Shown in pieces: positions 3,811 to 14,668 of a stretch of DNA of 64,000 nt. Each line of letters starts with the position of its first letter. Position 1 is the first letter of the stretch. The position numbers were made by a program, and so were the translations under genes. The DNA is from Candidatus Adamsella avium (lineage in GTDB: Bacteria; Cyanobacteriota; Vampirovibrionia; Gastranaerophilales; CAJFVJ01), in NCBI GenBank assembly GCA_904420445.1, contig CAJFVJ010000001.1:507266-571265 (forward strand), read 5' to 3'. The notes under the pieces are model-generated. The model was not told the origin of the DNA and did not search any database. It saw only the letters and a list, made by a program, of their open reading frames with translations.

Positions 3811-4290
3811 ATGAAGATATTAAACTTTTTAACCGCTGTGTTATGCGCTGTTGTGTTGTTCTCATCTTTTGCGTATGCAGGCATGGCGAAAGAAGATATT
3901 GATATTTTGAGAGAACAGCTTTCAGAACATTCGCTTGTTGTCATAAAAGAAGGAAAGACAGAAGTTTATAACGGCAGAGGGATAAAACCGCTGGTTGATT
4001 ATGTCAGAGATAAGAACTTTGAAGATGCTTATGCCGGCGATAAGGTTATAGGAAAAGCGGCTGCACTTTTGTTTGTTTACGGCGGGGCAAAATATGTTTA
4101 TACTCCTTTGATATCAAAGCCTGCAGTTGAGGTGTTCAAAAAGCACAGTGTCAAATACAGCGCAGATAGAGTTGTTGATAACATCAAAAATCGTAAAGGC
4201 GATGACTTGTGTCCGATGGAGAAGAAAGTCAGCAGCACAGACAGCCCTGAAGAGGCGTATAAATTATTTGATAACATTATTCCGCAATAA
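3811..4290 (+). CDS. Exported DUF1893-domain protein
   Basis: The first 23 residues form a classical signal peptide ending in FAYA before GMAKED. The remaining 135 residues match DUF1893 along their length: LxVIKEGKTEVYNGRGIKPLVDYV, GDKVIGKAAALLFVYGG, a VEVFKKHSVKYSADRVV stretch and the hallmark LCPMEKKV followed by SPEEAYK. From memory, the DUF1893 structure from Thermotoga has a cytidine-deaminase-like fold without an assigned reaction, and family members are normally cytoplasmic. The signal peptide is therefore the odd feature. AGAGGA lies just upstream of ATG 3811. The last 14 bases overlap the convergent gene ending at 4277. The biochemical function is unknown. Confidence 0.85.
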   Translation: MKILNFLTAVLCAVVLFSSFAYAGMAKEDIDILREQLSEHSLVVIKEGKTEVYNGRGIKPLVDYVRDKNFEDAYAGDKVIGKAAALLFVYGGAKYVYTPLISKPAVEVFKKHSVKYSADRVVDNIKNRKGDDLCPMEKKVSSTDSPEEAYKLFDNIIPQ

Positions 4291-5008
4291 GCTCTATAAC
4301 AACGGCATAAGTTTTCTTTGAAGCATAGTTTGATATGATGTATGATGCACTTTCGTATTGTGAGATGTCTGATGAGGTTGTTTTGATTATTATACCGTTT
4401 TGTTTGTTTGACTCGCCTTTGAGCATAGCTGATTCGCTCGGGTTCGATTGATTTTTTTTGTACATATAGAGTTCTGTAGAGATGTCGCCTTCTTCAAAAG
4501 GGTCAGTGACGTGGGTTATTTTCAAGGATTTTGTTTTTGGGGGAATGTAGAATTTTATTAAATCGAATTTCCTTTTGTCGATAGATGTATCGTATACAAG
4601 GATGTATTTTGAGTTCGGGCAGTAGTGTATTTCATTAAGACTGAGAGCTTTTTTCAGGTAGGGGTAATTTTTGTTTATTCTTTCATATATTTGAGCATTC
4701 GGGTTTTTATCAAGGCAAATAGGGCAGATTGGCTTTCTCGCTCCGATAATTGTTCCTGCTGCAAGATTTTTTTCTGCCTGTCTTCGCAGCAAGAAAGCTC
4801 CGAGTCCTAATAATCCAGCACCTCCTATAGAACCGAGAGTAATTGCCGTTACTGCACCTCCAGAGAGTCCGCTGTCTTTATTGTCTGTGTTTTGTGATGC
4901 GGGGTTTTCTGCAATTTCAAAATTGAATGATGGTGTTCCTACTCTTGCTGAAGCATAAGGAGCGTTCAAAGATAATATTATAAACAGTGCAAGAAGTTTC
5001 TTCAGCAT
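4277..5008 (-). CDS. Exported or membrane-anchored hypothetical protein, 243 aa
   Basis: Residues 1-21 look like a cleavable signal peptide (LLALFIILSLNAPYASA). A glycine-rich hydrophobic segment around residues 50-72 (AVTAITLGSIGGAGLLGLGAFLL) would place the rest in or on a membrane, followed by RRQAEK as a positive-inside flank. A CPICLDKNP motif and one further Cys in the next 60 residues could bind metal or form disulfides. The C-terminal half is soluble and beta-rich by eye. No family is recognised. It begins one base after the preceding gene ends (5010), so the two form an operon divergent from the chaperone-usher genes, which suggests but does not prove a role in the same surface structure. 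Confidence 0.7.
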   Translation of the reverse strand: MLKKLLALFIILSLNAPYASARVGTPSFNFEIAENPASQNTDNKDSGLSGGAVTAITLGSIGGAGLLGLGAFLLRRQAEKNLAAGTIIGARKPICPICLDKNPNAQIYERINKNYPYLKKALSLNEIHYCPNSKYILVYDTSIDKRKFDLIKFYIPPKTKSLKITHVTDPFEEGDISTELYMYKKNQSNPSESAMLKGESNKQNGIIIKTTSSDISQYESASYIISNYASKKTYAVVIELIAE

Positions 5009-5009
5009 A

Positions 5010-5495
5010 CTAGACCCTTCCTAAAGATATTACCAGTCTGGCATTGTATGTTGTACATACTGTATCCGGATGCGTTAACACCTGGGGGGTAAAGAAATCA
5101 GTTTCTATCATATTATACGGGTTGTTGATTGTATAGGATGACGGGCTGACACTCAGGTCTTCCGGCTTCATCGGATAACGTCCGCAGGCGCTGCAGCAGC
5201 TTTCAAACTTTGCACTTACCTGTATCGGGTCTGCTATGTTTGTATTAATCCTTACTGAAAACGGATTGAGACTGAGCCTGTAGCAATCTTCGCTAATTTG
5301 TTCAACTCCTCTGATTTCGACATTTTCGATTTGGTCATCTTTTTCATACTCAACACCGTCTACAATAATTTTTTCTATATGCAGCACTTCAGGCAGCGAG
5401 GCTTGGATGATTTGTGTTGAGTGTGTTTCTGCAAAACATGACTCAGGAGTTAATAATATTATGAGTGTTAGTATTGAAAGAATAAGTTTTTTCAT
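5010..5495 (-). CDS. Exported protein resembling the fibre subunits of the adjacent operon
   Basis: A signal peptide (residues 1-22, ending CFA) precedes a 139-residue secreted domain. Its mature N-terminus, STQIIQASLPEVLHI, is similar to DTQILRAKLPSYVDI in the subunit gene at 7369, and both then carry an E-x-C-aromatic element. It has a local CCSACG cluster absent from the others. I read it as a divergent member of the same subunit family, perhaps a minor or tip component; this is inference from short similarity. It is first in a two-gene minus-strand operon with the gene at 4277, and shares a 150-bp divergent intergenic region with the chaperone-usher operon. Confidence 0.65.
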   Translation of the reverse strand: MKKLILSILTLIILLTPESCFAETHSTQIIQASLPEVLHIEKIIVDGVEYEKDDQIENVEIRGVEQISEDCYRLSLNPFSVRINTNIADPIQVSAKFESCCSACGRYPMKPEDLSVSPSSYTINNPYNMIETDFFTPQVLTHPDTVCTTYNARLVISLGRV

Positions 5496-5645
5496 ATTTT
5501 ATCCTCAATCAAACTTTATTCTTCACAAAAATTTTTGAAATCCTCTTGACGAGCAAAAAATATATTGCCTGTTTTTCTATCCTACGAGGTATTTTTTTTC
5601 GATGTGTGAAAATTTATAAAAGTGGTGGTTGAGGACTTTAAGAAG

Positions 5646-6530
5646 ATGAAAATAATAATCACCGCTGTTTTGCTTTTTTTCTTAGGTTTGCAAGCGCAGG
5701 CAAATACTTATTTCCGTGCGGAACAAACAGGTATTCCGATTATTACTTCAAACTCGGTTGTTGCAAATCTGAATTTGTCTTATTTTCAATCGGGGCATTC
5801 AAAACTCTTTGTGCGTTCTGCTGATGGATTTATTGTTAATAATGAAAATCCATCCGTAAAAATTCCCGTGAGCAATCTTTATATACTATGTGATGGACAG
5901 TCTTATCAAATCAGTGATAAGGGCTGGCATATGTTTTTTTCAGACCCCGGGGAAGGGGCAGGAGTTTTGAATAAGAATGTAAACTTACGCCTCGAAAACA
6001 TCGGCGAGCTGCCATCAGGGGTGTACTCGGTGCTTTTGCAGTTTATGAACCGTGATGGGAATATGAGAGATTATGAAGGGGAATATGTGTTTTCTTTTTC
6101 TGTTGAAGAAAAACAGACAATAAGCTCTTTCAGCGGAGAACCGTTAATAAGGGTTGGTGATGATGATATTTTCAATTCATATTCGACAGTAAAGAACCAG
6201 AATGACATAAGACTTGACTTGAGTTCAAATACAAAATGGAAACTCTGTCTTGATACATCAAATATCGGACAGCTTGAAGGCGAGTATTATTTTTACATAA
6301 AGAACGTGACAGGGAGTGTTGTTGACTATGAACGAAACAGGACGAGAATTTTGCCAAATCGCAGATATTTCCTTGCAAGGGGAACAGGCACAATCGATGG
6401 AGTTGAAAGCGGGAATAGTATTCCTACAAATCTTGTTATCGAATATTCATTCAGAAATCCCGACTCAAAAAGCTATATAAAAGAAGGCATAAGACAAAAT
6501 CCGTTTACTTATATCATAGAGAAGGAATAA
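5646..6530 (+). CDS. Exported protein, first gene of the chaperone-usher-like operon
   Basis: I use ATG 5646 because it opens directly on a signal peptide (MKIIITAVLLFFLGLQAQA) and has GAGGA at 5631-5635; an upstream GTG at 5622 would add eight residues that spoil the signal. The mature part of about 275 residues is rich in alternating polar and hydrophobic residues, consistent with two beta-sandwich domains, and contains no catalytic motif I recognise. It stops one base before the chaperone gene start (6532), so the two are translationally close. By position and export it is a candidate adhesin, tip protein or accessory chaperone of the fibre; I cannot choose between these from sequence. Confidence 0.72.
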   Translation: MKIIITAVLLFFLGLQAQANTYFRAEQTGIPIITSNSVVANLNLSYFQSGHSKLFVRSADGFIVNNENPSVKIPVSNLYILCDGQSYQISDKGWHMFFSDPGEGAGVLNKNVNLRLENIGELPSGVYSVLLQFMNRDGNMRDYEGEYVFSFSVEEKQTISSFSGEPLIRVGDDDIFNSYSTVKNQNDIRLDLSSNTKWKLCLDTSNIGQLEGEYYFYIKNVTGSVVDYERNRTRILPNRRYFLARGTGTIDGVESGNSIPTNLVIEYSFRNPDSKSYIKEGIRQNPFTYIIEKE

Positions 6531-6531
6531 T

Positions 6532-7359
6532 ATGAAAAATTTTGCAATGACATTAATTATTACGGCGGTTCTTTTTTTTCAGGCAAACTTTGCCTTTGCT
6601 GCTGTCAGAGTGATGCCCACGCTGATAGAGCTTAATGCAAATAAAAGCAGAGGAAACTATTTGACAACGGCGTTCAGCGTGCAGGCAGACAAGGGGGAAA
6701 CAGTCAGGTTTAAGCTTTATCCCGAGTATTTTACAATAACTGACTCTGGCAAAATGAGTTCGACCCCGTCCTCAAACAACGCAGATAATTTGATACCACA
6801 TGCGAGATTTGTTCCGAACGAATTTACTCTGAAAGACGGTAAACCACAGCTTGTGAGGGTTACTTTTACCGATATAAAAAATCTGCCTGAGGGAGAATCA
6901 CGCATGGTTATGTTTATTGAAGATGTAAAAGCAAAAGAAGTCCTGCTTCCAAGCGGGAATAAGAATGTGAGTACAAAACTTATCGTAAAGACAAGGCTCG
7001 GTATCCCGATTTATGTTGATAGAGGGCGTTTTGTGAAGGTCGGAAGATTTGATAATTTGCAAATACAAAAAGAAAACCACAATCTTGTCTACAAAATGTC
7101 TTTGAGCGCAGGCGGAAACAGCAAGGTGAGATACCATGGGAAGGCTCAGATTATAAAAGATAAAAAACTGATTAAAGAGTTTGAAATGAACAGCAATACA
7201 ATTCGTGCAAACGGTGTCTTCGAAGAAAAGGGAATGCTTCCTCAGAATCTCGAAGACGGTGAATATACAATGAAAGTGATTTTGACTTATAAGAACGAAA
7301 AAGGAGAGAGCAAGAATTTGATAAAGGAAGCTCAATTCAACGTTACAAATTCAATTTAA
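6532..7359 (+). CDS. Periplasmic PapD-like fimbrial chaperone
   Basis: A signal peptide (residues 1-24, ending FAFA) is followed by a two-domain beta-rich protein of about 250 residues. The first domain starts VRVMPTLIELNANKSRG and continues with FSVQADKGETVRFKLYPEYF and an RFVPNEFTLKDGKPQLVRVTF stretch, the pattern of the N-terminal Ig-like domain of periplasmic pilus chaperones. The region around residue 155 (LIVKTRLGIPIYV) resembles the inter-domain strand. Such chaperones bind unfolded subunits in the periplasm and hand them to the usher. It sits between the first exported protein and two subunit genes, with gaps of 1 and 9 bases, and GGAGG precedes the next start. Confidence 0.78.
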   Translation: MKNFAMTLIITAVLFFQANFAFAAVRVMPTLIELNANKSRGNYLTTAFSVQADKGETVRFKLYPEYFTITDSGKMSSTPSSNNADNLIPHARFVPNEFTLKDGKPQLVRVTFTDIKNLPEGESRMVMFIEDVKAKEVLLPSGNKNVSTKLIVKTRLGIPIYVDRGRFVKVGRFDNLQIQKENHNLVYKMSLSAGGNSKVRYHGKAQIIKDKKLIKEFEMNSNTIRANGVFEEKGMLPQNLEDGEYTMKVILTYKNEKGESKNLIKEAQFNVTNSI

Positions 7360-7368
7360 GGAGGAAAA

Positions 7369-7977
7369 ATGAGAAAAACGAAACTTTTTGCAGCACTTCT
7401 TCTGCTTTCGGCAACAAGTATGTGTGCCTACGCAGAGAACTTTGACACCCAGATTTTGAGGGCAAAACTTCCGTCGTATGTTGATATCAGCGCAGAAACG
7501 GAAATACAGGAACAGAACATCAATCCTCAAACAGGTAATCTCGAGTCATGTTTTTCATCTGTTTTTACGGTGAAAGCGAATGACAAGCTTAATCTTTACC
7601 TACATGCGAAGACAAATACGAACTCGGGGTATGACAATGCATTCTTTCAGAAGGGTGAGAATGTTTATGTAATTCTCTCAAATATAGACCACAAACCAAA
7701 CTCTTCATCAATTGCCGATATCAAAACAGGGTCAGCAACACCTGAAAACAATCCGAATGCAATAGCATACCCTGTTATGGGGGTAATTTTGGGAGGGGCT
7801 ACAACTTCAGAAACAAAATACAACAGTGCCAAAAATCAGTACGAATTTAGTGTAAATCCGGGTATCACGACAGCGACAACAACGGTATCACCGTCTGTTG
7901 ACTCGTCAACATATTCATACAATGACAGAGCAGGCACTTATGAAGCTTATGTCACACTTACCGATACTACAACATAG
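7369..7977 (+). CDS. Fimbrial-type subunit, paralogue 1
   Basis: A 202-residue exported protein with a signal peptide ending AYA, and AAGGAGG before ATG. The mature N-terminus is TQILRAKLPSYVDI. It shares clear blocks with the next gene: an INPQTG/IDPQNG turn, LYLHAKT versus FVLSSAI, PENNPNAIAYPV versus PENNPNIIAYPV, and a terminal DRAGTYEAYVTLT versus DSAGMYEAVLTLN. The near-terminal alternating strand AGxYEAxxTL is typical in character of a polymerising beta-sandwich subunit. It is coded between the chaperone and the usher, the expected place for structural subunits. Assignment as a fibre subunit is by context and architecture; no named pilin family is recognised. Confidence 0.72.
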   Translation: MRKTKLFAALLLLSATSMCAYAENFDTQILRAKLPSYVDISAETEIQEQNINPQTGNLESCFSSVFTVKANDKLNLYLHAKTNTNSGYDNAFFQKGENVYVILSNIDHKPNSSSIADIKTGSATPENNPNAIAYPVMGVILGGATTSETKYNSAKNQYEFSVNPGITTATTTVSPSVDSSTYSYNDRAGTYEAYVTLTDTTT

Positions 7978-7988
7978 GAAAAAATCTG

Positions 7989-8594
7989 ATGAAACACAAT
8001 TTTGTCATTTTTTTGATATTGTTACTGACTGCACCGGCTTGCTCCGGTGCAGCGGTATTGGACAGCCGCCTTGTCACGATAGTTCCGTCCGCTGCCGTTG
8101 TCAAAAGTGTTCCTGGTATCAAAAATAACAGCGTAATAGATCCTCAAAACGGTTTTCACTCAGGTCTTGAGGCTGTTTTTGACATAAAAACGAACGGAGA
8201 TGACTCTGCTTATGACTTTGTTCTCTCGAGTGCAATAGAAACCTCTCATGGAGTAAAAAACGGTTATTTTTTGAAAGACGGGAAACTTTATCTTATGCTC
8301 TCAAACAAAGACAGACTTCCTTTATCATCTGCTGTTTTTGATATTGTTTCAGGCAGCCCTGAGAATAATCCGAACATAATCGCATATCCCGTTGTAAACC
8401 TGAGCGGAGGAGAGTTCAAAATTCAAAACTACAACGGAGAACTTTGCTGCAGGATTTTCAGCGGGGGGCAGCAGGAGATGACGGTTGCACAGTATATAGG
8501 GAGCACACCTTTGACCAGGACATATTCGATTGAACAGGATTCTGCCGGAATGTATGAAGCTGTGCTTACTTTGAATATTTATAGAAAACCCTGA
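7989..8594 (+). CDS. Fimbrial-type subunit, paralogue 2
   Basis: A 201-residue exported protein (signal peptide about 20 residues, ending CSG/AA). It is a paralogue of the previous gene, sharing an NGFHSGLEAVF/TGNLESCFSSVF block, YLMLSNKDRLP/YVILSNIDHKP, SPENNPNIIAYPV and the C-terminal AGMYEAVLTL strand. Its stop codon overlaps the usher ATG (TGATG, one base), so translation of subunit and usher is coupled. Two diverged subunit copies could be major and minor components of one fibre. Confidence in paralogy is high; the function is inferred from the neighbours. Confidence 0.72.
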   Translation: MKHNFVIFLILLLTAPACSGAAVLDSRLVTIVPSAAVVKSVPGIKNNSVIDPQNGFHSGLEAVFDIKTNGDDSAYDFVLSSAIETSHGVKNGYFLKDGKLYLMLSNKDRLPLSSAVFDIVSGSPENNPNIIAYPVVNLSGGEFKIQNYNGELCCRIFSGGQQEMTVAQYIGSTPLTRTYSIEQDSAGMYEAVLTLNIYRKP

Positions 8595-11350
8595 TGAAAA
8601 TTTTAATTTCTCTCTTTCTGCTGTTATGTTGTGTTTGTTGTGCTTATGCAGGGCAAACATCTGTGACAGTGAGCTCTCTTATTCTGAATGAGTCTGAATA
8701 TTATGATATAGAAGTTTTTATGGACTCATCAAACAGAGTATTGATTCCCGTAAAGCAAACTTCAAAACTTCTCGAAATCCCGCTGACAATCAACCATTCT
8801 TCAAAAGAAGTTGTTTTTTCGACTTACTCGGGGGCTGAGGTTCTGGTATCAAAGGCGGGTGTGTTTATGAACGGGGTCAAAATTTTGTCTTCGCCGATTT
8901 TTCAGAAAGAGGGTATTTTGGGGAGTGATGAGTATTTTGTTGATAAAACAACCGCATCAACAATATTCGAGTCAGAGGTTGATGTTGACCCGAATTCATT
9001 GAACGTAATGGTTGAAAATAAACATCTCATAACACTTACCGATAAGGAAGGGGAAAGTATTGAAGAACAGAAAGAAATTCTAAAACCAAAACCAAAGGGC
9101 AGAATATCATTTGATACATTCGAAGTTAACAACTCCATGATGAGCGATTCAACAAAGCAGGTGTATTTGAACACTACGCAGAATAATGTTATGTTCAACA
9201 ACAACACAAGAATGGGACTGAAAGGAAAAATCTGCGGCGGGGATTATGCGCTGAATTTCAATACAAACAACTATACTCAAGAGTTGTTTTCTTTTGGCGG
9301 GTTAAGTTTTTCTTATCGAAACAAAATCAAAGATTTTTTTTATGAACTAGGGCAGGTATCAGGGCTGAGAGATGATTATAATTCAATCGGTACAATGCTC
9401 ATAGGTGCTCAGCTTTCTGACTATGACGAATATGAAAAGAAAAAAGATAATCAAACGGAAGAAAAAATCTTTCTCGAAAAAGGTAAAGTTCAACACCGCA
9501 TTTTCGCCGGCGTATCAGGATATAACAACCGCCTCTTCAGCTCTAACGGCTATATTTATCAGATGAATTCAAAAAAACTTGTCGGCGGGATAAATCGCCG
9601 ATACGGCATCAGAAATGATATGACTCTGGATACGAAAATTGTGTTTGACAAAATTATCCGGAAGAATGATGATTCGATATTTATTACAAACCTCTATAAC
9701 GATTATTCGCTTCTTTCATCAGGTGTCTATAGAAATCCGAACACCATGGAAGGTTTGAGCATTATCAACACGCTTAATCTTTATAAAAATAAGAACTACC
9801 GTCTAAATTTACTCGGAGGGGTGTCAGCTGCAAGAGATTTTAATTATAACAACGGTGAGTATTCCTCCGGATATTCCGTGTCGCTTGAGAATATCTTTGA
9901 CTACAAAAACTACACTTTCAAACTCCGATTATACCAGCAGTCGCCAGATTATTATGTCGCAGGGTCAGATTCCGGGTTTATCAGCGATAGAATAGGCGCA
10001 GAGATAGGAGCGAATTATTCAAGGGAAAATTTGAATGCCAGTATGCGTTATACAAGATATTATTCCAATCTTGATAAACGTTATAACGGCGGGCTGACAT
10101 CTTTTGATGAGTTGTATTTCAACTCCGGTATGAAAATATTTAATCTTGCTCGTGCAAGACTCAATGGTAATTTGCGTTATGGAGAGAATGGCATTGGCGA
10201 TAACCTGAATTATTATTATAACTTCAACCTCTCAAAAAGTTTCAAACAGAGCCTGTCTTTGGAAGCAGGCTATATGAGCAACGCTTATAACACAAAATAT
10301 TCTGAAGGGAATTCTTTTAGCAGCGGGTTTAAGAGCTCTTATGATACTGCTTATATGAGTGCAAATTATAGACTTCCCAAAAATAAAGGCGTGCTGACAC
10401 TCGGGCATGATAACGTCAGCTATGAGTCAGGCGGGGCGTCAAACAATTATAATATGATAAAACTGAACTACCGTTTCCCTGAATTCAAAAGAATTTTGCT
10501 CGGGTTTGGTGTCGGATACAAGTATTCAGGGCTTGACGGGGGCTGCACTTACAGCGGGGCATTGGGGTATCGGACAAAATCAGGGATGATTATGAGCGTG
10601 AATTATCAGTATAATACCGCTATGGGATATATTTTCAACAACATGTACATCCCATCAAATGCAAGACATTCAATAAATTTCACCATGAACGATACTTTTG
10701 CTTTTTCTCAAAACGGTCTTCAATCAATAGGCTCGAGTTCTCCTAATCAGGGTTTTGTTGAAATTGTCGCTTATATTGATAAAAATAAAAACGGCAAATT
10801 TGACAAAGAAGACATAAAAGTCCCGAATGTTCCCGTTTCAGTAAGCTGGCAGAACGAGTCAATCAAAACAAAACGAAGCGGTTTTTGTCCGCTTCAGTGT
10901 GTGGAGAAAGGAATCTATGAGGTAAAACTGGACGGCGAGAATATGCATACAAATCTCTCTGCTGAAAAAAATGCTGAGGCGAGCATCTGTGTTGAACCGC
11001 AGAAAACAACACGTGTAGAATTTCCTCTCAGGAGTTCTGTCGGGAATATTTCGGGCGTCCTGAAAATTTCTGATGATTTTGATAGAAAGATGAATATTTC
11101 TGATTTCATTGTTACTCTGTGTGGTGAAGACGGGGCAGAGGTTGCTTATTCTACGGTTGATGCTGGCGGAAACTATTATTTTTCAGGGATATCCCCGGGG
11201 AAATATGTTGTTGCACTCGATAAGAATTTTATAAATGACTATAACCTCATTCCTGATGAAAAATACGGGAAAATAGAAGTCGATATTCCTTATGTTTATA
11301 AAGAATTTGTCGAGATGAACAATCAAAATCTTGTATATAAGAGTTATTGA
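8594..11350 (+). CDS. Outer-membrane usher-like protein
   Basis: A 918-residue exported protein (signal peptide ending AYA). Residues 25-150 form a beta-rich periplasmic region with a LIPVKQTSKLLEIPLTI stretch, similar in character to copper-amine-oxidase-N-type domains. Residues about 175-720 show the alternating, Tyr/Asn-rich strands with turn residues of a large outer-membrane barrel (for example GLKGKICGGDYALNFNTNNY). After the barrel comes YIDKNKNGKFDKEDIKVPNVPV, an EF-like calcium loop at the start of a C-terminal domain, and then a transthyretin-like unit (GGNYYFSGISPGKYVVAL). The same arrangement is known from ushers of archaic-type and non-proteobacterial chaperone-usher systems. It would secrete and assemble the subunits coded just upstream. 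The identification rests on architecture, length and context. Confidence 0.75.
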   Translation: MKILISLFLLLCCVCCAYAGQTSVTVSSLILNESEYYDIEVFMDSSNRVLIPVKQTSKLLEIPLTINHSSKEVVFSTYSGAEVLVSKAGVFMNGVKILSSPIFQKEGILGSDEYFVDKTTASTIFESEVDVDPNSLNVMVENKHLITLTDKEGESIEEQKEILKPKPKGRISFDTFEVNNSMMSDSTKQVYLNTTQNNVMFNNNTRMGLKGKICGGDYALNFNTNNYTQELFSFGGLSFSYRNKIKDFFYELGQVSGLRDDYNSIGTMLIGAQLSDYDEYEKKKDNQTEEKIFLEKGKVQHRIFAGVSGYNNRLFSSNGYIYQMNSKKLVGGINRRYGIRNDMTLDTKIVFDKIIRKNDDSIFITNLYNDYSLLSSGVYRNPNTMEGLSIINTLNLYKNKNYRLNLLGGVSAARDFNYNNGEYSSGYSVSLENIFDYKNYTFKLRLYQQSPDYYVAGSDSGFISDRIGAEIGANYSRENLNASMRYTRYYSNLDKRYNGGLTSFDELYFNSGMKIFNLARARLNGNLRYGENGIGDNLNYYYNFNLSKSFKQSLSLEAGYMSNAYNTKYSEGNSFSSGFKSSYDTAYMSANYRLPKNKGVLTLGHDNVSYESGGASNNYNMIKLNYRFPEFKRILLGFGVGYKYSGLDGGCTYSGALGYRTKSGMIMSVNYQYNTAMGYIFNNMYIPSNARHSINFTMNDTFAFSQNGLQSIGSSSPNQGFVEIVAYIDKNKNGKFDKEDIKVPNVPVSVSWQNESIKTKRSGFCPLQCVEKGIYEVKLDGENMHTNLSAEKNAEASICVEPQKTTRVEFPLRSSVGNISGVLKISDDFDRKMNISDFIVTLCGEDGAEVAYSTVDAGGNYYFSGISPGKYVVALDKNFINDYNLIPDEKYGKIEVDIPYVYKEFVEMNNQNLVYKSY

Positions 11351-11411: not shown

Positions 11412-12482
11412 ATGTCTGAAAAAGTTCGATATACAATAACTGCTTGCATTTCAGGCACAGCATGCAATTTTGATTGCAGCTACTGCTACAGGAAAAAACA
11501 GGGAGTTGAAGAGAAAAATCAGCCTTCAAATTTTCGTTATTCCGTTGAGTATATGCTGAAGGCTTTATCAAAACAGCGTTTGGGAGGAATTGCAGATATT
11601 GTTGTCATCGGAGGAGGAGAAACTCTGCTGCATCCTGATGTCGTTCCTTTTATCAAAGGACTTCTCGCAGAAGGGCATATTGTTGAAGTTGTTACAAATA
11701 TGACTCTCAATCATCGTATTGATGAGTTATTAGACAACACACCTTCTGAACATCTTGAAAGATTGCTTGTTAAGGGGTCATTTCATTATCTTGAACTGAA
11801 GCGGCTGAACAAACTTGATGATTTTTTCAATAATATGAAAAAAGTTGTTGATGCAGGGGCTTCATGCTTTCCGTTTCTGGTAATCTGCGAGGAATATATT
11901 CCGCTGCTTGATGAAATAAAACAGGCGTTCCTTGATAACCTCGGCGAACTTCCTCATTGTACGTCAGCTCTTGACTTTGCAGAAGCAAAGATGAAACCTT
12001 ACGGATTTTATAACAATGAATTCAAAAAAATTGTCAGCGAAAAATTCAACTCCAAAATAAACGACACATTTGACAGATTTTTATCTGTTGATGTGAAAAA
12101 CCACTTCTGCTACGCAGGTGAGTGGAGTTTTGTTCTGAACACATCAAACGGCAGCATATCAAGATGTTTTTATTCTCCATCCGAGCAGAATATATTCAGA
12201 GATATTTCTTCTGAAATAAAACTCGGTGCAATCGGCACAAACTGCTGTATCGGAAACTGTGCGCTTCATTATAATCTTGTATCACAGGGGATTATGCCTG
12301 ATTTTGATGATGTTATCCCATATGGAGATATGTTGTATAAACCGAAGCTGTTCAACAAAAAACTTGTAGAATTGTTGAATTTCAAATACGAAAATTATAT
12401 GCCTCTGTTCTCAAAAGAAGAAGAACAAAAGATTAATGATAAGACGAGAAAAACTTTTGAAGAACTCAAGACGAAAGTTTAA
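11412..12482 (+). CDS. Radical SAM protein, paralogue 1
   Basis: Cys18, Cys22 and Cys25 form the CxxxCxxC motif (CNFDCSYC) that binds the radical-generating 4Fe-4S cluster, followed by GGGETLLHPDVV, the usual SAM-contact region. The C-terminal part (about residues 225-300) has further Cys residues, including CFYSPSEQ and NCCIGNCALHYNL, which look like an auxiliary-cluster domain. The 356-residue length suits a radical SAM plus C-terminal Cys domain. The substrate is unknown. The next gene starts two bases later and is a paralogue, followed by a glycosyltransferase, so a role in making a modified surface sugar or peptide is plausible but unproven. The usher gene ends 61 bases upstream. Confidence 0.85.
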   Translation: MSEKVRYTITACISGTACNFDCSYCYRKKQGVEEKNQPSNFRYSVEYMLKALSKQRLGGIADIVVIGGGETLLHPDVVPFIKGLLAEGHIVEVVTNMTLNHRIDELLDNTPSEHLERLLVKGSFHYLELKRLNKLDDFFNNMKKVVDAGASCFPFLVICEEYIPLLDEIKQAFLDNLGELPHCTSALDFAEAKMKPYGFYNNEFKKIVSEKFNSKINDTFDRFLSVDVKNHFCYAGEWSFVLNTSNGSISRCFYSPSEQNIFRDISSEIKLGAIGTNCCIGNCALHYNLVSQGIMPDFDDVIPYGDMLYKPKLFNKKLVELLNFKYENYMPLFSKEEEQKINDKTRKTFEELKTKV

Positions 12483-12484
12483 AG

Positions 12485-13315
12485 ATGGTTAAAGAAGATA
12501 AGATAAAAAGAGTTATATTTTTTTGTGGGGGAAATTATTTCTGCAATTTGAAATGCGAGTATTGCTATCTTGATTCACCAAAGCCAGATAAAAAATTCTG
12601 CACCTCAAAAGAGCTGATGAAGACTTTTTCAAAAAAAGCATTAGGCGGGTGTGCTTTTTTCAACTTTGTTACTTTGGGCGAAACCCTTTTGTGTGACGAA
12701 AATATTGAAGCGATAAAGTTATTCCTTGAAGAAGGGCATGTTGTCAATGTCGTGACAAATTTGACATATTCAAAAAATTTGGAAAAACTTCTTTTACTGC
12801 CTGAGGAGTTAAAAAGCAGGCTGATTATTCATGCGAGTCTACACTATCTTGAATTGAAGAAAAGAAATCTCCTTGATGAATATTTCAACAACCTTCAAAG
12901 ATGCAAAGAGGCAGGAGTTTCATTTCATATGGATTTAACCGTATATGAAAAATACATGCCTGTTCTTGAAGAGATTAAAGAAGTATGTCTTTTGAAAACA
13001 GGGCTTTTGCCGAATATAACAATTGCACTCGACAAAGATAAAAACTGGATGCCGTTTGATTTTTATAATGAAGCAGTGCACAAAAAAATAGTTGATGTTT
13101 TTGATGCAAAAGAGCTTGATATTCAGCGCAATATATTTTTTGACAAAGAAGAAAATAAACCTTGTATGGCAGGCAGATGGTCGCTTGTTTATTATTGGTC
13201 GGGGAGAAGATGCACTGCCTGCAACGGGATAAAAGTGAATATTGATACGCCGTTTGTAAATTCGGATGGCGTAAAGTGGCTCGGGGGGGGGGGATACGGT
13301 TATATGCCCTTTTAA
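12485..13315 (+). CDS. Radical SAM protein, paralogue 2, truncated by a G-tract frameshift
   Basis: As read here the gene codes 276 residues, with CxxxCxxC at Cys20, Cys24 and Cys27 (CNLKCEYC). It parallels the previous gene along its length: VTLGETLL versus VIGGGETLL, EEGHVVNVVTNLT versus AEGHIVEVVTNMT, and ASLHYLELKKRNLLDEYFNNL versus GSFHYLELKRLNKLDDFFNNM (both shown only in part of the match). After KWL it enters a run of 11 G (13283-13293), reads GGGGYGYMPF and stops. With 10 G the frame would continue to 13472 through a Cys-rich tail that aligns with the C-terminus of paralogue 1. The displayed form lacks that presumed auxiliary-cluster region and is probably inactive. It is either a phase-variable off state or a homopolymer error. 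Confidence 0.8.
   Translation: MVKEDKIKRVIFFCGGNYFCNLKCEYCYLDSPKPDKKFCTSKELMKTFSKKALGGCAFFNFVTLGETLLCDENIEAIKLFLEEGHVVNVVTNLTYSKNLEKLLLLPEELKSRLIIHASLHYLELKKRNLLDEYFNNLQRCKEAGVSFHMDLTVYEKYMPVLEEIKEVCLLKTGLLPNITIALDKDKNWMPFDFYNEAVHKKIVDVFDAKELDIQRNIFFDKEENKPCMAGRWSLVYYWSGRRCTACNGIKVNIDTPFVNSDGVKWLGGGGYGYMPF
13283..13293 (+). repeat. Homopolymeric G tract (11 G), candidate contingency switch
   Basis: Eleven consecutive G residues lie in the coding strand of the second radical SAM gene in an otherwise AT-rich region. Tracts of this kind change length by slipped-strand mispairing and switch genes on and off in many host-associated bacteria. The current length puts the downstream coding region out of frame; one fewer G would restore it. 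Confidence 0.85.
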
Positions 13316-13477: not shown

Positions 13478-14668
13478 ATGGCGAGAATTCTTGTATCATT
13501 TTGGCAGCCGTTGATAGGCAGCAGTTCAGATAATATTATCTGCTATTATGAAGCTTTTGCAAAAGAACTCAAAAAATTTGGAAATGAGGTGTTGATACTC
13601 AACAGAGTTTTGTTTACCGATGCTTATTTCAGGTCTTATGCAAAAGAGCATGAGGATTTTCTTGTTGAAGAGGTAAGAAAATTTAATCCCGATTTGATAA
13701 TAGCGTTTAATAATCAAATTTTTGAGTGTGTTCTTGAAAACACAAATTGTCCTGTCGGCTTGTTTGACGCTGATTCGAGCTATTTATTTTCATCAAAAGA
13801 TTGTATATCCAAATATATTGAAAGATATTTTATGGTGACTCACTATGAGAATTGGGAGAATGTATATGGTGAAATGGGATTTTCTCGGGAAAAAATTTGT
13901 ACCATCAAAATAGCAACCTCATGCAGGAGGGAAGAAAAAGAAAAAAACAAGAATATTTCTTTTATCGGAACGAAGTTTCTGCAAACAGTGAGTGAGAATA
14001 TCAGAAACTATCTTACTGAAAACAAGCCAAATATTTACAAAATGCTAAAAAAACACTGGAGCAGCGGGTCTTATGATTATGAAGAATTGTTGAAGGAGTT
14101 TTGTCCTGATTTGACATGTACAAAACATGATATAGCCCAGATATTTGACGGCAGAAACTATGTTCTTTCATCTCTTCTTGATCTCGGTCTGAATTTGTAC
14201 GGTGCCGGCTGGCATGATGGCGAAGATAATAATATTGCGCTGATGTCCGCTTATGACAGTACTCCGAAATTTTCACTGAAACACAATCAGGATATTTACA
14301 ATGAGTCGAAAATATGTTTGAGCATCTCACATCCCCAGACAAGAGGCTATGCGTTTCCATGGAGGGTATATGATATTATGGCAACAAGCGGTATGTTGAT
14401 TTCGTCTTATTCCTCACTGCTGAAATCGCAGACAAAAGATTTTGTTGATATTCCCATGTATAACTCTCCATATGATGCTCGTGATCTGTGCAAAAAATAT
14501 CTGAAAGAAGCAAATATGAGAGAAGATGTTGTTTGTGCCTGCAATGATTTTATAGAAAAACATGGTCGATGGGAGAACAATTTTCGTGAGCTTGAAACGT
14601 TTTTCAGACTTAAACTTATTAACAGAGGAGAAGGGAGTATAAAATTTTTGAGACCGCCTATACAATAG
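13478..14668 (+). CDS. Glycosyltransferase-like protein, CgeB/DUF3880 type
   Basis: A 396-residue cytoplasmic protein with a two-domain GT-B-like layout. The N-terminal half has a PDLIIAFN strand near residue 75 and a CPVGLFDADS stretch, as in DUF3880 domains. The C-terminal half has YNESKICLSISHP around residue 275, then YAFPWRVYDIMATSGMLIS, the donor-binding region seen in CgeB and YkvP-like family 1 transferases. By family it would transfer a sugar from an activated donor; acceptor and sugar are unknown. It follows the presumed full-length end of the second radical SAM gene by five bases, so the three genes look like one operon whose middle gene is switchable. Confidence 0.75.
   Translation: MARILVSFWQPLIGSSSDNIICYYEAFAKELKKFGNEVLILNRVLFTDAYFRSYAKEHEDFLVEEVRKFNPDLIIAFNNQIFECVLENTNCPVGLFDADSSYLFSSKDCISKYIERYFMVTHYENWENVYGEMGFSREKICTIKIATSCRREEKEKNKNISFIGTKFLQTVSENIRNYLTENKPNIYKMLKKHWSSGSYDYEELLKEFCPDLTCTKHDIAQIFDGRNYVLSSLLDLGLNLYGAGWHDGEDNNIALMSAYDSTPKFSLKHNQDIYNESKICLSISHPQTRGYAFPWRVYDIMATSGMLISSYSSLLKSQTKDFVDIPMYNSPYDARDLCKKYLKEANMREDVVCACNDFIEKHGRWENNFRELETFFRLKLINRGEGSIKFLRPPIQ

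Follow-up and report, generated by a model that had tools for sequence, protein, structure and literature searches.

A predicted plugless usher in a chaperone-usher-like gene cluster of gut Cyanobacteriota

The outer-membrane pore of an usher is very wide; the plug domain closes it and is thought to aid the recruitment of subunits. Can an usher that has lost this domain still build a fibre? This question is raised by a locus in Candidatus Adamsella avium, which belongs to the Gastranaerophilales, a non-photosynthetic gut group within the Cyanobacteriota. We analyzed a stretch of 64,000 nucleotides (the window; contig CAJFVJ010000001.1, positions 507,266 to 571,265) from its 2.10 Mb genome, and found in it a conserved cluster of seven genes, P0001 to P0007, at positions 4277-11350 of the window. 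Among their products is a predicted usher of 918 residues, P0005, that has no plug. In the accounts cited here, the plug shuts the barrel of the resting usher and moves to the periplasm on activation (PMC8410936, PMC11459180, PMC3960871), and two of them still call usher activation and the exit of the plug from the pore an open question (PMC3960871, PMC8410936). We consider it likely that the seven genes encode a chaperone-usher fibre system, that its usher belongs to a branch invisible to Pfam and NCBIfam and spread across the Cyanobacteriota, and that the plug was lost from it. The broader proposition that plugless ushers occur in nature, that they arose more than once among the non-photosynthetic Cyanobacteriota and that they continue to build fibres seems to us somewhat better founded than its contrary. 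The usher gene and its predicted parts are as follows.

8594-11350, + strand: P0005, 918 amino acids, predicted outer-membrane usher without a plug domain
8657-9019, + strand: usher N-terminal domain, about residues 22-142, predicted best within the N-terminal half of the model
9101-10693, + strand: beta-barrel region with successive predicted strands, about residues 170-700, of low confidence over much of its length
9452-9457, + strand: site of the missing plug, at the junction of residues 287 and 288, after the sixth predicted barrel strand
10748-11035, + strand: C-terminal domain 1, about residues 719-814, containing a calcium-loop-like motif
10778-10816, + strand: calcium-loop-like motif, DKNKNGKFDKEDI, residues 729-741
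11036-11347, + strand: C-terminal domain 2, about residues 815-918, SdrD_B/CarboxypepD_reg-like

A sister usher, about 1000 residues long, is encoded by other Gastranaerophilales in a cluster of the same type. When 24 ushers of the 918-residue type (the window and 23 others) were aligned with 12 of the sister type, every sister-type sequence had 62-66 residues at the site between residues 287 and 288 of P0005 and all 24 sequences of the 918-type had none. This was the sole systematic indel of more than 5 residues between the two types, and no insertion specific to the 918-type exceeded 1 residue. The alignment left out L022, which is the window itself, and L023, L024, L025 and L027, whose tblastn matches repeat those of L015, L002, L019 and L018; partial frames (L029, for example) and the broken frames L038/L060 were also omitted. 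In a full-length alignment, the inserted segment of the sister type aligned with the plug of ushers of the Pfam family PF00577, and when compared alone with the usher profile it found its best place at the plug site (columns 293-353), with a weak score (28.8%). At the place of the plug, three of five usual cyanobacterial ushers matched the Pfam E-set domain (TcfC), two of them well below the cut-off and the third just below. The model of P0005 puts the site after the sixth barrel strand. By these comparisons, in which the plug was defined by alignment and not by structure, P0005 is an usher without a plug domain. A first-pass annotation of the window had singled out the N-terminal region as the unusual feature of the usher, a place that belongs rather to the missing plug; the calcium loop that it had placed near the C-terminus corresponds to the calcium-loop-like motif in C-terminal domain 1.

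The same division was seen in genome searches. A plug profile matched 11 of 11 genomes with a sister usher and none of the 7 with the 918-type only. The usher was patchily distributed in the order, with matches in 83 of 383 genomes, and all 40 plug-positive genomes fell within these 83; 35 of the plug matches lay in frames of 977-1057 amino acids and the other 5 in shorter ones (354-696 amino acids). Complete 918-type frames (908-943 amino acids) numbered 22, in 21 genomes, two of which (G465 and G536) had a plug, each on a separate sister-type usher. One weak, partial plug match (E 0.011) was found in G250, which has a full plug as well. We rejected a plug supplied by another protein of the window, because no open reading frame of at least 60 amino acids matched the plug profile (best E 0.71), as well as a plug encoded elsewhere in the same genome, where the profile found none and the positive controls worked. 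Some usher genes of the order were broken by stop codons or cut to C-terminal fragments (L038/L060 in G020; pieces in G043, G098, G182, G399 and G511), which suggests repeated decay of the cluster.

The link between P0005 and known ushers was provided by profile-profile alignment. The Gastranaerophilales usher family (19 rows) aligned in hhalign with 15 PF00577 ushers at 98.1% (E 1.2e-13, 750 columns), co-linearly from the N-terminal domain through the C-terminal domains, and at 99.5% in global mode. The controls gave 0.2% for reversed sequences, 0.9% for TonB receptors (18 of 20 loci with a frame of more than 500 amino acids) and 0.3% for Omp85 (20 of 20 loci). A model of P0005 made with AlphaFold2 (AF2) contained, at low confidence, about 27 predicted strand segments in residues 170-700 (about 24-27), and in Foldseek its ranks 1-11 were taken without exception by FimD or PapC entries (E 1.4e-14 to 3.5e-10), ahead of LptD by many orders of magnitude. 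The C-terminus matched the Pfam domain SdrD_B (E 3.7e-10). We conclude from these alignments that the usher family of P0005 is homologous over its whole length to true ushers, via the sister type.

The usher gene is embedded in a compact cluster, with the remaining features placed as follows.

4277-5008, - strand: P0007, 243 amino acids, exported or membrane protein with one hydrophobic segment, conserved cluster member
5010-5495, - strand: P0006, 161 amino acids, exported, pilin-like (N-terminal region resembling P0003 and P0004)
5496-5645: divergent intergenic region, 150 bases, presumed to be regulatory
5646-6530, + strand: P0001, 294 amino acids, exported, two beta-rich regions, candidate tip subunit or adhesin
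6532-7359, + strand: P0002, 275 amino acids, PapD-type periplasmic chaperone by homology to cyanobacterial chaperones
7369-7977, + strand: P0003, 202 amino acids, pilin subunit as judged from the AF2 model and Foldseek
7438-7479, + strand: residues 24-37 of P0003, free N-terminal extension, candidate donor strand
7989-8594, + strand: P0004, 201 amino acids, putative pilin subunit, paralogue of P0003

The five plus-strand genes follow one another at distances of 1, 9, 11 and -1 bases, and P0001 has an alternative start, a GTG at 5622 upstream of 5646. The packing and the divergent genes agreed with the first-pass annotation in reading frames and coordinates, and its range of 5010-11350 covered six cluster genes and omitted P0007, which is part of the conserved unit. 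The closest named record, a Candidatus Gastranaerophilales metagenome-assembled genome (as are all Gastranaerophilales sequences with a named source), encodes an usher 93% identical to that of the window. When genome contigs were searched, the order P0001-P0002-P0003-P0004-P0005 was kept in all 21 related loci, with P0006 in 20 and P0007 in 19 of them, the absences coinciding with contig ends; the co-occurrence that the first-pass annotation had proposed to check was thus found. Such conservation of gene order excludes a chance assembly of the cluster. Chaperone, usher and subunits were encoded together in these 21 close loci and also in all nine sister-type loci (L052-L060). Against the L001 locus, which is 93% identical, the ratio of nonsynonymous to synonymous substitution rates was 0.02-0.14 for all seven genes, and purifying selection therefore acts on each of them.

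P0002 had no Pfam family match in a direct scan and a sub-threshold NCBIfam match to the fimbrial chaperone StbB (E 0.0039). A profile of P0002 found homologues in the sister-type clusters, in the Vampirovibrionia family f4 and in photosynthetic cyanobacteria, and one homologue (L065) passed the PapD_N cut-off (24.4 vs 23 bits). In hhalign the P0002 family aligned with 13 cyanobacterial homologues at 99.8% and with 12 chaperones encoded beside PF00577 ushers at 96.1% (reversed controls 0.3-0.4%); five of these 12 chaperones were scanned against Pfam and all five passed the cut-off of PapD_N (PF00345). Against the PDB, the 23-sequence chaperone profile gave three rows, the best a weak match to the pili chaperone 4ncd (E 0.019), with EcpB at 0.58, and phmmer and profile searches of the PDB that started from the families of P0002, P0003 and P0005 were weak or uninformative. 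Homology to PapD_N chaperones, on which the identity of P0002 rests, is counted here among the demonstrated points at the level of aligned profiles, and it supports the assignment of P0002 as a PapD-type chaperone. Profile searches against the PapD and usher families, which the first-pass annotation had proposed, thus failed as direct Pfam and NCBIfam scans and succeeded by way of profile-profile alignment and homologues.

P0003 and P0004 are exported proteins of about 200 amino acids that are about 34% alike. An AF2 model of P0003 from 44 sequences (predicted local distance difference test, pLDDT, 87.3; predicted template modelling score, pTM, 0.78) showed a beta-sandwich from residue 38, with no strand in residues 19-37. 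The top eight Foldseek rows were all chaperone-usher pilins, among them CfaB, the PapG pilin domain, CFA/I, SafA and the FimC-FimI-FimA complex, with E below 0.001 for two only; the best was CfaB (4y2l, E 2.1e-4). VIA-align gave Z 7.0 for the PapG pilin domain and 6.9 for CssB, with integrins close behind, and in both programs the pilin matches covered approximately residues 35-202. P0003 is accordingly modelled as an incomplete immunoglobulin-like (Ig-like) fold with a free N-terminal extension, which is what the first-pass annotation had anticipated for the subunits, and residues 24-37 could act as the donor strand. The match to the pilin fold is good and not exclusive, with other Ig-like folds near in score. 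None of P0003, P0004 and P0006 matched the SCPU family PF05229 in the Pfam scan; among pilins beside usual cyanobacterial ushers, three of the five scanned (of 12 rows used in hhalign) matched it, one of them below the cut-off. P0006 aligned with the P0003/P0004 family at 89.3% over 41 columns, comprising the signal peptide and an N-terminal stretch only.

The remaining components were less readily placed. P0001 leads the operon in 21 of 21 close loci and is present in nine of nine sister-type clusters; no relative was found in Pfam or the PDB, and its identification as a known adhesin was dropped for want of a match. P0007, present in seven of the nine sister-type clusters, matched no Pfam family above the cut-off. 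P0001 and P0007 were also rejected as further pilins, since they aligned with pilins over the signal peptide only.

Several results weigh against a chaperone-usher system. P0005 matched no usher model in direct Pfam and NCBIfam scans, and PF00577 matched none of 32 members of the usher family at E 0.01 in Pfam, although as a positive control it matched all five scanned of the 15 usual cyanobacterial ushers used in hhalign. The 918-type profile alone matched PF00577 weakly (35.1% over 279 columns), so the link to known ushers depends on the sister type, which is 40-46% identical. A search of the PDB with the usher-family profile found SdrD and NOMO domains and no usher. The AF2 model of P0005 was poor (mean pLDDT 54.9, pTM 0.31), with residues 147-209 modelled at very low confidence, and it reached template modelling scores of only 0.10-0.14 to the top ushers, with a root-mean-square deviation near 30 Å; the Foldseek ranking therefore reflects the order of local elements and not an assembled barrel. 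VIA-align listed generic barrels over residues 445-702 and no usher, a list that does not in itself exclude ushers. For the chaperone, PapD_N matched only 1 of 23 members of the P0002 family, and a profile search with PF00345 gave no match in the window's own genome. For the pilin, the matches of P0003 were modest (best VIA-align Z 7.0), with integrins interleaved. Set against these points, the controlled profile-profile alignments, the Foldseek ranks and the conserved synteny support the proposal of the first-pass annotation that this is a chaperone-usher operon of a distinct branch outside the Proteobacteria.

A fibre could be built by these genes as follows. P0003 and P0004, and probably P0006, would be pilins whose Ig-like fold is incomplete and whose N-terminal extension is free, kept in the periplasm by P0002. 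The N- and C-terminal periplasmic domains of P0005 would receive them, donor-strand exchange would join them, and the fibre would leave through the barrel to the cell surface, with P0001 as a likely tip or minor subunit. With the plug absent, some other means must shut the pore or limit its width. The likeliest candidates are the periplasmic domains at either end of P0005 and a tip complex, with P0001, that stays in place; a narrower pore was considered too. Plug-less PapC is reportedly defective in pilus assembly. A variant of this explanation, rather than its opposite, is that P0005 is not truly open and that a non-homologous substitute for the plug is formed by P0001, by P0007, by the N-terminal or C-terminal domains or by the linker of residues 143-170. 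Leaving a 24-strand pore open would come at a high cost, and PapC without its plug is described as opening to conductances of about 3 nS (PMC10418385); P0001 and P0007 are free of an assigned role, and the stretch 147-209 is the one of very low model confidence. However, P0001 and P0007 are kept also in the sister-type clusters that bear a plug, and the 918-type has no insertion of its own longer than 1 residue. We give a substitute plug a little less than an even chance.

It is unlikely that the 918-type usher has ceased to make long fibres and instead displays a single adhesin or serves as a pore. The loss of a gate would suit relaxed control of secretion, and the operon is limited to two genes for pilins and a single candidate minor subunit, but the gene set is the same as that of the plug-bearing sister type, and chaperone, pilins and usher are under purifying selection. 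Finally, the reading of P0005 as a large outer-membrane barrel that resembles an usher without being related to one would fit the missing Pfam and NCBIfam match, the poor model and the generic barrels in VIA-align, but is very improbable given the co-linear full-length match to an usher profile that TonB receptors and Omp85 did not give, the Foldseek ranking of ushers first and far ahead of LptD, and the PapD-type chaperone and pilin encoded next to it. The plugless usher most likely still builds fibres, to judge from purifying selection and from a cluster like that of its plugged sister.

A tree calculated without the plug columns and rooted on PF00577 ushers required at least two changes of plug state, or three if family f4 is counted. 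Loss is the simpler direction, because cyanobacterial and PF00577 ushers have the plug, and it seems that the plug was lost two or three times. Among deep-branching relatives from families f41, f42 and f43, a plug-length segment was present at the site in L128-L131. L126 and L127, from two genomes (G293 and G306) of one genus of f42, had a short linker there, probably through a separate event. Loss in f4 is likely, and this assignment rests on a weak alignment of the first half of the barrel. In a first tree the plug-bearing sister type formed its own clade (support 94, not starred), which was given up when more sequences made it paraphyletic (branches 97* and 96*); the group of sister-type ushers nearest to the 918-type is unsure (83). 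Near-duplicate 918-type rows were left out of the trees, and L065, L101, L122 and L118, which are long or partial, were left out of the later one. The f4 loci (L061-L064), from the same class, encode usher-like proteins seemingly without a plug, with three to five exported paralogues of about 200 amino acids nearby, and the N-terminal domain of the L061 usher had a Cu_amine_oxidN1 match just below the cut-off.

Relatives of the P0005 branch were also found in photosynthetic cyanobacteria (hhalign, 98.6%). They adjoin homologues of the P0002 chaperone and exported subunits, which align with SCPU-type pilins (97.8%). In L090-L099, L101 and L065, all from photosynthetic Cyanobacteriota, a chaperone lies beside a protein of 870-1250 amino acids with a CarboxypepD_reg C-terminus and no match to an usher model; these proteins look like undetected ushers of the P0005 branch. 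One cyanobacterial locus (L095, 3947-10353) has two divergent chaperones of the P0002 family flanking a single subunit gene and a single usher-like gene, and its genome (G091) carries a separate PF00577 usher as well. Among 292 genomes, PF00577 matched in 18 and the chaperone profile of the P0005 branch in 46, at least one of whose matches (in G078) adjoins a PF00577 usher. Chaperone-usher systems are undercounted in Cyanobacteriota because the standard family models miss this branch.

The surroundings of the cluster differed between loci. All seven flanking genes tested were found in L001. The other 20 loci had no close relative of any of them, a single weak galE match in L004 being the only trace; the cluster is therefore a self-contained cassette with sharp edges, in a comparison in which several of these 20 loci stop shortly after the cluster or are short on one side. 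Just 3' of the usher gene, the window carries two radical SAM genes and a possible glycosyltransferase (11412-13315 and 13478-14668), found among the 21 close loci only in L001. Adjoining the other end of the cluster, at 3811-4290, is a DUF1893/TM1506 protein (Pfam E 1.4e-36) with a signal-like N-terminus.

A family that has lost exactly the plug, with the rest of the machinery under selection, is a natural experiment on pore gating, and it makes the question of plug exit and usher activation testable from the opposite side. If plugless ushers do build fibres, the plug is dispensable for chaperone-usher secretion and the pore is sealed otherwise. The uncultured gut Gastranaerophilales gain a candidate surface organelle, which might serve for attachment in the gut, as the first-pass annotation suggested. 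The open-access literature that we searched, subscription papers being outside its scope, contained no earlier report of such an organelle in this group, of the P0005 usher branch or of natural plugless ushers; a paper on termite Melainabacteria mentions flagella and type IV pili and no usher or fimbria (PMC5877343).

Among the closest known systems, the cluster can be compared in its components with the archaic (sigma) chaperone-usher systems that have been described in cyanobacteria (PMC4390875, PMC6755745, PMC4654587) and that one of these accounts defines by PF05229, PF00345 and PF00577 (PMC4390875). It shares the same three types of component and the operon style of the CccS/CccP/Slr0019 type as outlined there (PMC4390875), its chaperone is homologous to theirs, and the archaic ushers L115, L119 and L123 have a weak C-terminal CarboxypepD_reg match, as does P0005. 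Unlike in these systems, the usher of the window is not seen by PF00577 and has no plug, and the pilins have no SCPU match. CfaB, a CFA/I-type (alternative) pilin and the best Foldseek row for P0003, is 11% identical to it, and P0003 is about 50 residues longer. FimD and PapC of E. coli, the best Foldseek rows for P0005, likewise run from an N-terminal domain through the barrel to two C-terminal domains. Known ushers are described as having five domains, including the plug that closes the pore (PMC8410936, PMC11459180), and the plug of PapC as 76 residues inserted in a loop between two strands (PMC10418385, PMC4356140), whereas P0005 is predicted to have the other domains without the plug. The sister-type ushers of about 1000 amino acids (L052-L059) are at most 46% identical to P0005 and are encoded in a like gene cluster, but they carry the plug of 62-66 residues.

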